Assembly (NCBI RefSeq): GCF_029815055.1
Contig: NZ_JAPPWA010000002.1
Coordinates: 124,001-188,000, forward strand
Length of the DNA: 64,000 nucleotides
From: Ignatzschineria sp. RMDPL8A
GTDB taxonomy: Bacteria > Pseudomonadota > Gammaproteobacteria > Cardiobacteriales > Wohlfahrtiimonadaceae
Reading direction: 5' to 3'
Position numbers and translations under genes: made by a program. The notes beneath the pieces were generated by a model. The model searched no databases. It was not told where the DNA came from and saw only the letters and a program-made list of their open reading frames with translations. Of this stretch, positions 2,956-50,719 are shown one piece after another (within the stretch, counting starts at the first letter, position 1; the number at the start of each line of letters is the position of its first letter).

Positions 2956-5625
2956 ATGAGTGAATTTGCTAAAGAAGTTGTTCCCGTAAATTTAGTTGAT
3001 GAGATGCGTAGTTCTTACTTAGATTACGCGATGAGTGTCATTGTCGGCCGAGCGCTCCCCGATGTGCGCGATGGGTTAAAACCTGTGCACCGCCGAATTT
3101 TACACTCGATGAATCAAACGGGAACGGACTGGAACAAGCCTTACAAAAAATCCGCGCGGATTGTGGGGGATGTGATGGGTAAATATCACCCTCACGGTGA
3201 CAGCGCGATCTATGACACCCTCGTTCGAATGGCCCAGCCATTCTCAATGCGCTATATGTTAGCGGACGGTCAAGGGAACTTCGGTTCGGTGGACGGGGAC
3301 TCACCGGCAGCAATGCGTTATACCGAAGTGAGAATGAGCCGTATCGCCCATTCGTTATTGGCTGATATTGACAAAGAGACCGTCGATTTTACGCCAAACT
3401 ACGATAACTCAGAGCAAGAGCCTTCGGTGCTTCCTACTCGAATTCCAGCGCTCCTTGTCAATGGATCGTCCGGGATTGCGGTGGGAATGGCAACGAACAT
3501 TCCGCCCCATAACTTAACGGAAACCATCAACGCAGCGCTTGCGCTTCTCCATAATCACGACATTACCATCGATGAATTGATGGAATATATTCCTGCACCG
3601 GATTTCCCGACCGCAGCGATTATTAATGGCACCAAAGGCATTCGTGAAGCCTATCATACTGGCCGTGGACGCGTTGTCATTCGCGCACGTGCGACCGTTG
3701 AGCATGATGAAAAGCGCAATCGCGACACCATCATCATTACCGAGCTTCCTTATCAGGTCAATAAAGCACGCCTCATTGAGCGCATCGTTGAGCTCTATCG
3801 GGATAAAGTGATTGAAGGCATTGCGCCTGATGGGCTTCGCGATGAGTCGGATAAAGACGGAATGCGCATTGTGATCGAACTTCGCCGTGGTGAAATGGGT
3901 GAAGTGATCCTCAATCAGCTCTACAAACATACCCAATTACAGAGTAGTTTCGGCATTAATATGGTTGCGATCGATCGTGGCCAGCCGAAGCTTCTTAACT
4001 TAAAAGAGGTGTTAAACGCCTTCTTAGTCCATCGTCGTGAGGTGATTACCCGCCGTACCATTTTCGAACTGCGTAAAGCGCGCGATCGTGCTCATCTATT
4101 AGAAGGGTTAACGGTGGCGCTCGCTAATATCGATGAAATGATCGAATTGATCCGTTCATCGGCTACAGGTCAGATCGCAAAAGAGCGTATGCTTGAGCGT
4201 ACCTGGATGCCAGGCCAAGTCTCTGCAATGCTTGACCGTGCGATGGAACTGCAAACAAGCCCCGATGATCTTCCGGAAGGCTTTGGTTTAATTAATGGTG
4301 AATATTGTCTCTCTGAGCAACAAGCCCAAGCGATTCTCGATATGCGCCTCCAACGCTTAACCGGGTTAGAACAAGATAAGATTTTCGATGAATATCAAGC
4401 ACTGCTCGATACCATCGCTGAATTGATCGAGATTTTAGTCAATCCTGAGCGCCTTAAAGAGGTGATCGTGGAAGAGCTTGATGCAATTAAAGAACAATTT
4501 GGTGATGAGCGTCGTACGGAAGTGTGCGCTGCTGCTGAAGATATTAGCCTTGCCGATTTAATTGCGGAAGAAGATGTGGTGGTAACACTCTCTCGTCGCG
4601 GTTATGCAAAATATCAAAAACTCGATGAATATCGAGCTCAGCGCCGTGGTGGTCGAGGTAAATCGGCTGCGCGTGTTGTGGATGAAGATGACGTTGAGCA
4701 TCTATTAGTGGTGAGCACGCATGCGCAATTGATGTGCTTCTCATCGCGCGGTAAGGTCTACTGGCTCCGCGTATTTGAGCTGCCTGAAGCGGGTCGCGGT
4801 TCGAGCGGTCGCCCCATTGTGAATATGTTGCCGCTTGAAGAGGGTGAACGCATTACCTCAATCCTCCAAGTCGAGGAATATAGCGATGATCAATATATCA
4901 TCATGGGAACGAAAAACGGCATCGTGAAGAAAACAGTTCTCTCCGCTTTTGCAAGTGAGCGTTCAAATGGTCTCATTGCGGTGAATCTCGATGAAGGTGA
5001 TGAACTCATTGGTACGCACATTACCGATGGCGAGAGCGATGTGATGCTCTTTACCAATACCGGTCTTGTGAACCGTTTTGATGAAAATGACGTTCGCGCA
5101 ACCGGCCGTAATACTCGCGGGGTCGTGGGCATTCGCTTAGTGGAAGGCCAAACGGTGATTTCGATGATGATTCCAAAACCCGATGATGTGGTCTTAATTG
5201 CCACCGAGCACGGTTATGGAAAACGAACTCGCATTGAAGAGTTCAGCAAACACAATCGTGGCGGTAAAGGGGTGATCGGTATTCAAACCTCAGAGCGGAA
5301 CGGGAACATCATTGGCGCGTCGATCGTTGCCGATGGCGATGAAGTGATGCTGATCTCGTGTAGCGGCGTTTTAGTGCGTACGCGCGTCGATGAGATTTCC
5401 ATTTTAAGCCGTAATACCCAAGGTGTTCGCCTCATTCGTTTAGATGAAGGGGATACACTTGTGGGATTAAGTCGCATTGATGAATCACAAACCGGCGGTT
5501 TAGAGGATGAACTATTTGATGAAGATCAAACAGATGAGACTCTAGAAGCGGCTAATGATGGTGATAATGCGAGTGAAACTGACGCGAAATCTTCTGAAGA
5601 ATCAGATGAAGAGATCGATGAATAA
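2956..5625 (+). CDS. gyrA: DNA gyrase subunit A
   Basis: Breakage-reunion subunit of gyrase, which introduces negative supercoils with GyrB. 889 residues, the usual length. The N-terminal winged-helix/tower region carries [18 protein letters not shown], the quinolone-resistance region [19 protein letters not shown] and catalytic Tyr122 in AMRYTEVRM. The GyrA-box QRRGGRGK appears near residue 560 before the six-bladed C-terminal beta-pinwheel that wraps DNA, and the C-terminus ends in a long acidic tail (about 40 residues rich in D and E), as in E. coli. Residues 83 and 87 are Ser and Asp, the quinolone-susceptible state. The ATG at 2956 follows AAGGATGAGTTC. A strong terminator follows the gene. 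Confidence 0.99.
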
Positions 5626-5699
5626 ATAAGATACTCCGTAATGGGGCGTTTATCGATATGGATCGAGCGCCACTTTACCAATTGATAGAGTGATCAAAT

Positions 5700-5731
5700 G
5701 CCAGGCCTGCAAACGGGTACTGGCGTTTTTT
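5700..5731 (+). terminator. Rho-independent terminator of gyrA
   Basis: GCCAG/CTGGC outer stem (5700-5704 with 5720-5724), inner CCTG/CGGG closing a CAAA loop, then GTTTTTT (5725-5731). It sits 75 bp after the gyrA stop, on the same strand. Confidence 0.85.
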
Positions 5732-5845
5732 ATGTTTTAAATAAGTTGTTGCATGTAAGTCAATGAAAACAGAGCTGAATTTTAGTTGAGGTTTATTTAA
5801 ATGGATTAAACGGCAATTAACAATCTATGAATCGGTCGATTGATT

Positions 5846-5876
5846 TTGTTAATCGTGCCAATTTAAATAATATACT
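5846..5876 (+). promoter_or_regulatory. Candidate sigma70 promoter of the GGA-loop sRNA
   Basis: TATACT (5871-5876) is a one-mismatch -10; TTGTTA (5846-5851) is a 4/6 -35 with a 19-bp spacer. Predicted start is about 5883. About 115-130 bp upstream, TGTAAG at 5754-5759 followed six bases later by AAAACA resembles the left half of a GacA upstream activating site (TGTAAG-N6-CTTACA) but the right half is poor. Confidence 0.45.
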
Positions 5877-5882
5877 TCATAT

Positions 5883-6068
5883 ATTAGGGGTAGGGCTTAA
5901 AATGAGACCTCTATAACATATTGACGTCACCCACGGATGGGCTGAGAATCAAGGATTGATTTCAGACGTCATATGTTTATAGCTCAATTTTCCTTTTAGA
6001 TCGATGGATCTGTTCTAAAAGGGCCAAAATGCAAAAAGGAGAGTCTTCATGAAAGGCTCTCCTTTTTT
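5883..6068 (+). ncRNA. Candidate CsrB/RsmY-type sRNA with GGA loops
   Basis: Non-coding RNA candidate of about 185 nt. An outer imperfect inverted repeat (5916-5928 with 5965-5976) encloses two hairpins: CCC/GGG with loop ACGGAT (5930-5941), and CTGA-G-AATC/GATT-TCAG with loop AAGGATT (5942-5965). A third, CCTTTTAGA/TCTAAAAGG (5992-6000 with 6014-6022), carries ATGGA (6004-6008) in its loop; a fourth AAGGA is at 6036-6040 in the terminator. ANGGA exposed in hairpin loops is the binding signal for the translational regulator CsrA/RsmA, and RNAs with several such loops (CsrB, CsrC, RsmY, RsmZ) act by titrating it. The RNA ends in a strong intrinsic terminator and has a plausible promoter. The structure is seen; the CsrA role is inferred. 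csrA itself is not in the window. Confidence 0.65.
6033..6068 (+). terminator. Intrinsic terminator ending the sRNA
   Basis: AAGGAGAG (6036-6043) pairs perfectly with CTCTCCTT (6057-6064); the T run covers 6063-6068 and the A run upstream extends the stem. On the opposite strand it would also serve the small gene at 6095-6448. Confidence 0.85.
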
Positions 6069-6094
6069 ATTATTGTTAGAAATTTTAGAGAATC

Positions 6095-6448
6095 TTAAAG
6101 ATCTTCAACGCCAAAATCAGTATCTTTGCCACCAGGAAGGGCACGTGAACGGTCAATCGGCACATAGGGGCCATCTTTCGTTTTCACCTGACACTCGCTT
6201 AAAATCCACGAATATTTGGTTTCCGCTTTCATGCTCATCCCGCGGACTTTACAGCGCGCCGTGTTGTAGAGCGGTTTTGCGCAAGCAATGGTAATGATGA
6301 TAAAGATCGCCACCCACGCAATTAGGAGGCGCTTGATGTTGCGATCAAGCATCAAAATAAAGGGCGTTTGTTTATAACGGGCATAACTGTAAACACCGGT
6401 GAGCAGTAAAATCAGCCCAATCAGCTGAAAGCTAAAATACCAAATCAT
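6095..6448 (-). CDS. Hypothetical small membrane protein
   Basis: 117 residues. Two hydrophobic segments are clear: residues 1-21 (MIWYFSFQLIGLILLLTGVY) and about 42-57 (LLIAWVAIFIIITIACA), separated by a basic loop, so the protein probably crosses the inner membrane twice. The remaining C-terminal half is soluble with two cysteines and an acidic tail (DTDFGVEDL). I do not recognise the family. It lies downstream of and in the same direction as the arsB-like gene but 105 bp apart, so an operon is uncertain. The shared terminator at 6033-6068 can end this transcript. Moderately confident that it is a gene, given its membrane pattern and length. Confidence 0.65.
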   Translation of the reverse strand: MIWYFSFQLIGLILLLTGVYSYARYKQTPFILMLDRNIKRLLIAWVAIFIIITIACAKPLYNTARCKVRGMSMKAETKYSWILSECQVKTKDGPYVPIDRSRALPGGKDTDFGVEDL

Positions 6449-11044: not shown

Positions 11045-11641
11045 TTACTGATTAAATTTGTCTAAAAGCGACTGCATTTTTTCGTCAAGAGTTTGGGTGT
11101 TTGCTGGCGCTGATTTGCCGGCAGCTTTGTCGTTACGTCCTGCATTATTATTGGGACGACGTTTCGCCTGGCCTTGACGACGCGGTTTTTGAGTGCGTTT
11201 TTTCGGCTCTGCACGTTTAAGCGCATCAGGACGATTTTCGCTCAACCACGCTTCAATCTTAGCGATGTTCTCTTTCGCGAGCGTTTTGTGCTCTTCTAAG
11301 ATCTCTTCAGCATCTGACCCATCTAAATTGGTGCGATGCGTTGCGTGTAAAACGGCGTTTTGATAGCGTAATTGTTTGGTATACCATGCAAGCGCTGATC
11401 GAAGCGTTGCAGGAGAAAAGCCCCACTCTTTTACGATCGGTTGAAGCTCTTTATGGAGGCCAATCGCAAGGGCAACCGGGCGACCATCTTTCGGATGAGG
11501 AAAGATTTTTGGGTACGCTTCAGCGAGCTTAGCGAGCAGTGCACGTGAGTCCTCAACGCGCTTTGCACGGGCTTCTTTCGCCTCTTCCGCCTGTTTTGCT
11601 TCGTGCTCAAGGGGAGCGGTGTTTTGTTGTTCAGTTGTCAT
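11045..11641 (-). CDS. proQ: ProQ/FinO-family RNA chaperone
   Basis: Global RNA-binding protein that stabilises sRNAs and mRNA 3' ends. 198 residues: a short acidic/coiled N-terminus, the ProQ/FinO domain at about 35-130 (LLAKLAEAYPKIFP, KPVALAIGLHKEL-like block here as RPVALAIGLHKEL, GFSPATLRSALAWYTKQLRY), then a Lys/Arg-rich disordered linker (KKRTQKPRRQGQAKRRPNN) and a short C-terminal helix. The linker is typical of ProQ proteins with a basic tail. Three bases separate it from argS. With the nearby Csr-type sRNA candidate it points to an active post-transcriptional layer. Confidence 0.92.
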   Translation of the reverse strand: MTTEQQNTAPLEHEAKQAEEAKEARAKRVEDSRALLAKLAEAYPKIFPHPKDGRPVALAIGLHKELQPIVKEWGFSPATLRSALAWYTKQLRYQNAVLHATHRTNLDGSDAEEILEEHKTLAKENIAKIEAWLSENRPDALKRAEPKKRTQKPRRQGQAKRRPNNNAGRNDKAAGKSAPANTQTLDEKMQSLLDKFNQ

Positions 11642-34529: not shown

Positions 34530-34599
34530 ATTATGGCAGGATTGGTAAGATCTTCTAGCTGAAAAGTGATCTACTCACGTTTTAGATCAATCATGTTAC

Positions 34600-34852
34600 G
34601 CCATAACCCAGCGATCAGGATGATCCTTGGAGATGTCAGAGCAAGTAAGCTCCCTACTTATGGACAAGTAGCGAAAATGGATTTTAGCATCGTTATGGCA
34701 CAGATTGATTTCAGCGTTTCTATTTTGATGGAGTGGAATAGAAACATACCTCGTTCAATCGGGGGAGTCATACCCCGCATCTGTGTCGCAAGACTGAAAA
34801 TTTCGGTATTTTAAAGAGTAAGCTACTTAGGTAGAGGGCTTTTCTTTTTTGA
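34600..34852 (+). other. Non-coding stretch with GGA hairpins
   Basis: GATC-AGGAT-GATC (34613-34625), and CTACTT/AAGTAG with hexaloop ATGGAC (34654-34671), put GGA in loops; ATGGA also occurs at 34677-34681 and 34728-34732. A CGGGG/CCCCG stem (34760-34777) and a GGGCTTTTCTTTTTT run (34837-34851) follow. An 82-codon ORF across it starts with GTG without an SD and has no recognisable protein character. Possible second Csr-type RNA, weak. No convincing promoter. Confidence 0.25.
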
Positions 34853-35454: not shown

Positions 35455-35552
35455 CTTTCTTTTTTTTATTAGAGGATTGATTTTTATTCTGCCGAAAATG
35501 CGCTATAGTGGGGGTGTAAACAATTCTTTACAGCCCTTAGGAGGAGAGACTA

Positions 35553-41052: not shown

Positions 41053-41218
41053 AAAAAAGCTCTTCCTGATCCAAGAAGAGCTTTAACAAACTAAAGGTCT
41101 TCTTATCTCTCAGACCGTGCAATTGCGGGCGATCTGTTGGATTTAGCACAGTACGCAAAGCGCCTGTTGCTGAGACTTCGCAGGGCCAATTCCCTCCATC
41201 TCTCTCAATAAGATTCGA
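41053..41218 (-). promoter_or_regulatory. SAM-I (S-box) riboswitch upstream of metH
   Basis: On the minus strand the P1 5' arm TCTTATTGAGAG (from 41213) is followed by TGGAGGGA (41198-41191), GGCCC, GAAGTCTCAGCAAC and GTGCTAAATCC (41149-41139), and closes with GAGAGATAAGA. These are the conserved kink-turn, GCAAC and GCUAA-UCC elements of SAM-I aptamers. The expression platform is a perfect 10-bp terminator (41056-41065 with 41075-41084) with T6 to 41053. SAM binding should favour this terminator and shut off metH. Confidence 0.93.
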
Positions 41219-50558: not shown

Positions 50559-50719
50559 ATCTTATCAAGAGTGGTGGAGGGAAAGGCCCGTCGAAACCCA
50601 GCAACCTGATGAATAATTAAGGTGCTAATTCCTTCAAGCGGTCGTTTTTGAGGCTTGAAAGATAAGTTGAGTGAAGCCAACACGACTTGATGAGATTTAA
50701 GGAGTGCTGGCTTTTTTTT
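50559..50719 (+). promoter_or_regulatory. SAM-I (S-box) riboswitch upstream of metF
   Basis: P1 arms CTTATC (50561-50566) and GATAAG (50661-50666). Between them lie the kink-turn element GTGGTGGAGGGA (50571-50582), GGCCCGTCGAAACCCAGCAACC (50585 onward, shown in part: AAACCCAGCAACC), and GGTGCTAATTCC (50621-50632), all matching the SAM-I consensus. A terminator follows: AAGCCA-A-CAC (50674-50683) with GTG-C-TGGCTT (50704-50713) and T8. The aptamer should stabilise termination when SAM is abundant. An extra inverted repeat (50524-50558) precedes the aptamer. Confidence 0.96.

Follow-up and report, generated by a model that had tools for sequence, protein, structure and literature searches.

Downstream of gyrA in Ignatzschineria sp. 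RMDPL8A, a candidate small RNA (RNA1) was analysed within a 64,000-nt stretch of contig NZ_JAPPWA010000002.1 (positions 124,001 to 188,000), called the window below. Judged from its sequence and predicted fold, RNA1 is likely a real small RNA gene, and it is moderately likely that its main role is the sequestration of CsrA. This reading is partly supported and was the best available one, because csrA is present, the loops match CsrA/RsmE ligands, and no better candidate was found in 76% of the genome. On balance, RNA1 appears to be a low-valency CsrA antagonist, and other such RNAs are probably encoded in the same genome. It looks like a lineage-specific example of a known RNA type that falls outside every Rfam Csr family as tested. 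The coordinates are given in Table 1.

Table 1. Features of the RNA1 locus and the second candidate, in window positions
Feature	Position	Strand	Basis
gyrA, upstream neighbour	2956..5625	+	ORF of 889 aa; GyrA C-terminal domain in 32/32 relatives
TGTAAGTCAATGAAAA box, candidate activator site	5754..5769	+	15/16 to the G011 csrB copy 2 box, 14/16 to both G014 copies
Interrupted inverted repeat GGCA-ATTAACAA...TTGTTAAT-CGTGCC, upstream of -10	5812..5859	.	sequence, fold
Putative -10 element TATACT	5871..5876	+	sequence
RNA1, small RNA candidate, ~186 nt	5883..6068	+	fold z -4.9; no Rfam match; single copy
Three-way junction: outer stem 5911-5928/5965-5982 and two GGA hairpins	5911..5982	+	predicted fold
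Hairpin 1, CCC-ACGGAU-GGG, ANGGAX hexaloop on C-G pair	5930..5941	+	fold; ligand rule (PMC4005645)
Hairpin 2, AUCA-AGGAU-UGAU	5946..5962	+	predicted fold
Hairpin 3, AUGGA in large loop	5992..6022	+	predicted fold
Intrinsic terminator, bidirectional, holding a paired AAGGA	6033..6067	+	15 pairs, one G-U
RNA2, second candidate	34590..34852	+	GGA-hairpin scan, fold; ~29 kb from RNA1

Structural prediction gave RNA1 a folding energy of -60.7 kcal/mol (z -4.9), and none of 200 shuffled sequences folded as well. The sequence-only reading had placed ANGGA motifs in the loops of three hairpins, the first two within an outer stem, and all of them were recovered in the ensemble fold (ACGGA 5933-5937, AAGGA 5951-5955, and ATGGA 6004-6008). 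The outer stem of the junction comprises about 17 pairs and encloses two hairpins whose GGA sites start 18 nt apart; the third site lies 53 nt beyond the second, outside the three-way junction. The GGA was unpaired with a probability of 100% at 5935 and 5953 and of 77-99% at 6006. The AAGGA noted earlier at the foot of the terminator was present too and the terminator is strong, but this motif, at 6036, had an unpaired probability of 0 and is buried in the terminator stem, so RNA1 offers three accessible GGA sites. Three ANGGA motifs in hairpin loops were found in 0 of 5000 shuffles of RNA1, and RNA1 was the sole place with this number among 3192 tiles of the window.

The predicted loops were compared with known ligands. 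RsmE binds with high affinity to the hexaloop ANGGAX when it sits directly on a stem, and its reference ligand has the loop ACGGAU (PMC4005645); hairpin 1, with ACGGAU closed by a C-G pair, is of this high-affinity type. The AGGAU pentaloop of hairpin 2 resembles loops 3 and 4 of RsmZ, and the AUGGA of hairpin 3, whose loop is wide, is expected to be a weaker CsrA site. The start-to-start spacing of the first two sites falls inside the range of 10-63 nt over which CsrA bridges its sites (PMC7652899). With RsmZ/RsmY of Pseudomonas and CsrC/CsrB of E. coli, RNA1 shares the A(N)GGAX stem loops, the intergenic position, the intrinsic terminator, and a csrA gene in the genome. It has three accessible sites, whereas RsmZ contains 8 GGA motifs (PMC4005645) and CsrB contains 22 (PMC7652899), and it further differs from these RNAs in its three-way junction, in matching no Rfam family, and in that no GacA/UvrY orthologue was found.

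The genome comprises 2.18 Mb in three contigs, the window included. The csrA gene, whose absence had been named beforehand as an argument against a Csr RNA, was found at C2:967150-967305 with a score of 86.9 bits against a cut-off of 27. The encoded protein retains L4, which is important in CsrA, and R44. The importance of R44 in CsrA has been reported (PMC7652899). No UvrY/GacA orthologue was found in the genome; the sole match at an E cut-off of 1e-10 was 27% identical, and its recognition helix presumably reads like that of NarL.

Sequence divergence among Csr RNAs is too rapid to be followed by homology, and for this reason no antagonist is known in many lineages that have CsrA. RNA1 had no match at the gathering score in the Rfam scan, and even at E values up to 10 no CsrB/Rsm model was hit and only chance matches appeared; the CsrB model RF00018 had no match in this genome (G000). 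Neither BLAST against 56 relatives nor a covariance model built from the single sequence and run on 31 relatives found a homologue; these sets were composed of species of other genera. The regions downstream of gyrA across the family were short and unrelated. In a near-identical metagenome-assembled genome (L065, JAAZCI010000097.1) the contigs end here, leaving 5464-6388 unrepresented; this assembly is labelled Lysobacteraceae, probably wrongly, since its GyrA is 99% identical to that of the present genome. A literature search for Ignatzschineria and CsrA returned no paper. RNA1 was rejected as 6S RNA, the RF00013 match lying elsewhere (C2:188709-188900), and as a mobile element, being single copy. 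An 81-aa ORF (6049-6294) that starts inside the RNA1 terminator was also rejected; it is antisense to 6095-6448 and has no family above cut-off.

Analysis of the family showed that csrA is patchy (G000 to G016): no sampled g2 genome has it, and it is missing from three genomes of the sister genus g4. In three csrA-positive g4 genomes RF00018 gave sub-threshold matches which, on inspection, contained many AGGA hairpins followed by terminators, with a tandem pair in G011; on sequence grounds these are convincing candidates for CsrB-type RNAs. They face a conserved small gene in convergent orientation at the same syntenic site, and by following this gene across genomes they were traced in G005, G011, G013, G014 (two copies), G016, and G015 (cut by a contig end), on stretches L176, L177, L178, L183, L187, and L192, in tandem in two genomes. 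A multi-GGA CsrB-like RNA was thus present at the site in 6/6 csrA-positive and 0/3 csrA-negative g4 genomes (G003, G007, G009); all these genomes are related to each other and so are not independent trials. The syntenic site contained no CsrB-like RNA in those csrA-negative genomes checked from another genus, or in the present csrA-positive genome, where a terminator and then another gene occupy it. This family pattern gives the sponge reading of RNA1 indirect support. This CsrB group of g4, which tracks csrA, is apparently undescribed. Its members resemble RNA1 in being family-level kin with csrA and in their GGA hairpins, but they occupy a different locus, carry more GGA hairpins (5-7 against 3 for RNA1 by the loose count), and cannot be aligned with RNA1 in sequence.

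The region upstream of RNA1 contains the TATACT -10 that had been noted ahead of the predicted 5' end; by sequence reading, no good -35 was found at 16-18 nt before it. The inverted repeat at 5812-5859 is possibly an operator or a 5' hairpin, and its TTAACAA/TTGTTAA core is unique within 464 kb of this genome. The GacA-like half site TGTAAG proposed at 5754 was present. The case for GacA is mixed: the half site lies in a box that matches a sister csrB box, but neither the complete TGTAAG-N6-CTTACA palindrome of the GacA/UvrY type nor a UvrY/GacA orthologue was found. RsmZ/RsmY and CsrC/CsrB have upstream UvrY/GacA sites that the RNA1 box resembles, among them the degenerate UvrY site TGTGAGACATTGCCGATA of E. 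coli csrC, located at a considerable distance upstream of the promoter (PMC4682653). In g4 the corresponding box, TGTAAGTYATTGAAAA, is located upstream of csrB copy 2 of G011 and of both G014 copies, and among the five sister genomes with a readable csrB promoter, three (G005, G013, G016) lack a box of this type there. The 5754 box was spotted by eye, which makes the similarity post hoc, and the p value of about 0.005 from mononucleotide shuffles holds for one pair of boxes and is likewise post hoc. The search pattern TGTAAGTYAWTGAAAA contains a W that was introduced to admit the base at the RNA1 locus, so the zero-mismatch status of the 5754 box is by construction. At one mismatch or fewer this pattern had three matches in this genome (5754, before a pilin gene, and in a coding region); this count is weak evidence, because other genomes and the reversed control each gave 0-2, and the argument is one of position. 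The match before the pilin gene (L166 16048-16063; G000:C2:916048), TGTAAGTTATTGAAAA, is identical to the sister csrB box; a type IV pilin gene, one of three pilin genes in a row, follows about 130 bp downstream.

The scan for other Csr RNAs covered 1.664 Mb in stretches, or 76% of the genome, and since its hairpin rules were set after the candidates had been seen, the ranking is descriptive and not a blind test. The strict rule asked for three hairpins per 250 nt, each with A(N)GGAX seated immediately on its stem. In the 241 kb of non-coding sequence scanned it picked out only 5803-5953 and 34618-34730, both in the window; one of the hairpins counted in the former has an AT stem and lies at 5803, before the start presumed for RNA1. 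By the loose count no non-coding place in the same 76% exceeded 3, and 28 anchor positions in 464 kb reached 3 per 250 nt. The second locus, RNA2, is intergenic, with genes for a LysR protein and a universal stress protein on either side, and shows the same design as RNA1, an outer stem enclosing GGA hairpins and then a GAUGGA hairpin. Its outer stem (34600-34607/34692-34699) encloses an AGGAU hairpin closed by C-G/U-A and an AUGGAC hairpin on six pairs, and the GAUGGA hairpin (34716-34745) is followed by a weak terminator-like end. Three GGA loops occurred in 2 of 2000 shuffles of RNA2, and the two RNAs have only a 12-nt match in sequence. A palindrome, TGTAAACAATTCTTTACA, lies at 35515-35532, immediately upstream of the gene for the universal stress protein. 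Other places were rejected: the GGA-dense C2:846660 belongs to the coding sequence for a Gly/His-rich, presumably PadR-like protein, L174:11481 lies inside a peptidase-like gene, and loci on L215 and L253, with three loose GGA hairpins each, contained no convincing RNA.

The claim that RNA1 is the CsrA antagonist of the lineage is too strong as it stood, because RNA2 is similar, the scan covered 76% of the genome, and the transcription of RNA1 and its binding to CsrA are predictions; the sponge reading itself was retained. It is a realistic but doubtful alternative that the main Csr antagonist is another RNA, whether RNA2 or one in the remaining 24% of the genome, and that RNA1 has another role. 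RNA2, with its AGGAU, AUGGAC, and GAUGGA hairpins, alone scored 3 on the strictest hairpin rule, but compared with its shuffles it folds less well than RNA1 (266 of 2000 were as stable) and its terminator is weaker; moreover, genomes often encode several Csr RNAs, so the two readings are compatible.

Since Hfq is present (L216:14254-14460, 80% identical to that of E. coli), the main rival is an ordinary base-pairing sRNA, dependent on Hfq or on the ProQ-like protein encoded at 11045-11641 of the window, in which the GGA loops are incidental or bind CsrA to a minor extent. McaS, GadY, and Spot 42 of E. coli, primarily base-pairing sRNAs, have few GGA motifs, as does RNA1, and binding to CsrA or antagonism of it has been reported for them (PMC7652899, PMC11882849). 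The strong terminator, the presence of only three GGA sites, and the single-stranded linkers at 5983-5991 and 6023-6032 suit such an sRNA, but three GGA loop motifs are unexpected from composition and the first two are fixed on the junction and not placed in a free seed region; we regard this reading as rather unlikely. It is very unlikely that, in place of an RNA gene, the locus holds only a structured terminator region or 3' trailer: the lack of a good -35 and the fact that transcription is predicted from sequence speak for this, but gyrA is already followed by a terminator-like hairpin, identified by sequence reading at 5700-5731, and RNA1 is a long structured element with its own -10 and terminator, beginning about 260 nt past the gyrA stop.

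As a CsrA-sequestering RNA, RNA1 would be transcribed as an independent gene between gyrA and a convergent gene, activated perhaps through the 5754 box. Its stems would hold the GGA loops out, two on the junction and one further on; a single CsrA dimer would probably bridge hairpins 1 and 2, with hairpin 3 as an additional, weaker site. The loops probably mimic CsrA binding sites and the RNA would soak up CsrA, so that with the promoter on, RNA1 would take CsrA from mRNAs, acting at low valency like RsmY/RsmZ or CsrC and probably jointly with RNA2. In a speculative scenario that we consider unlikely, this lineage would have lost an ancestral many-site CsrB from the family locus and replaced it with two short GGA-junction RNAs of low valency, controlled by a regulator that is not GacA/UvrY and whose box also stands before the pilin gene. 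The family comparison provides testable candidates, namely the two RNAs described here and the CsrB group of g4, and if these were confirmed, they would show that Csr control can be exerted by few-site RNAs without a recognisable GacA/UvrY. Two SAM riboswitches (RF00162) were also observed in the window, at 41100-41214 and 50559-50668.
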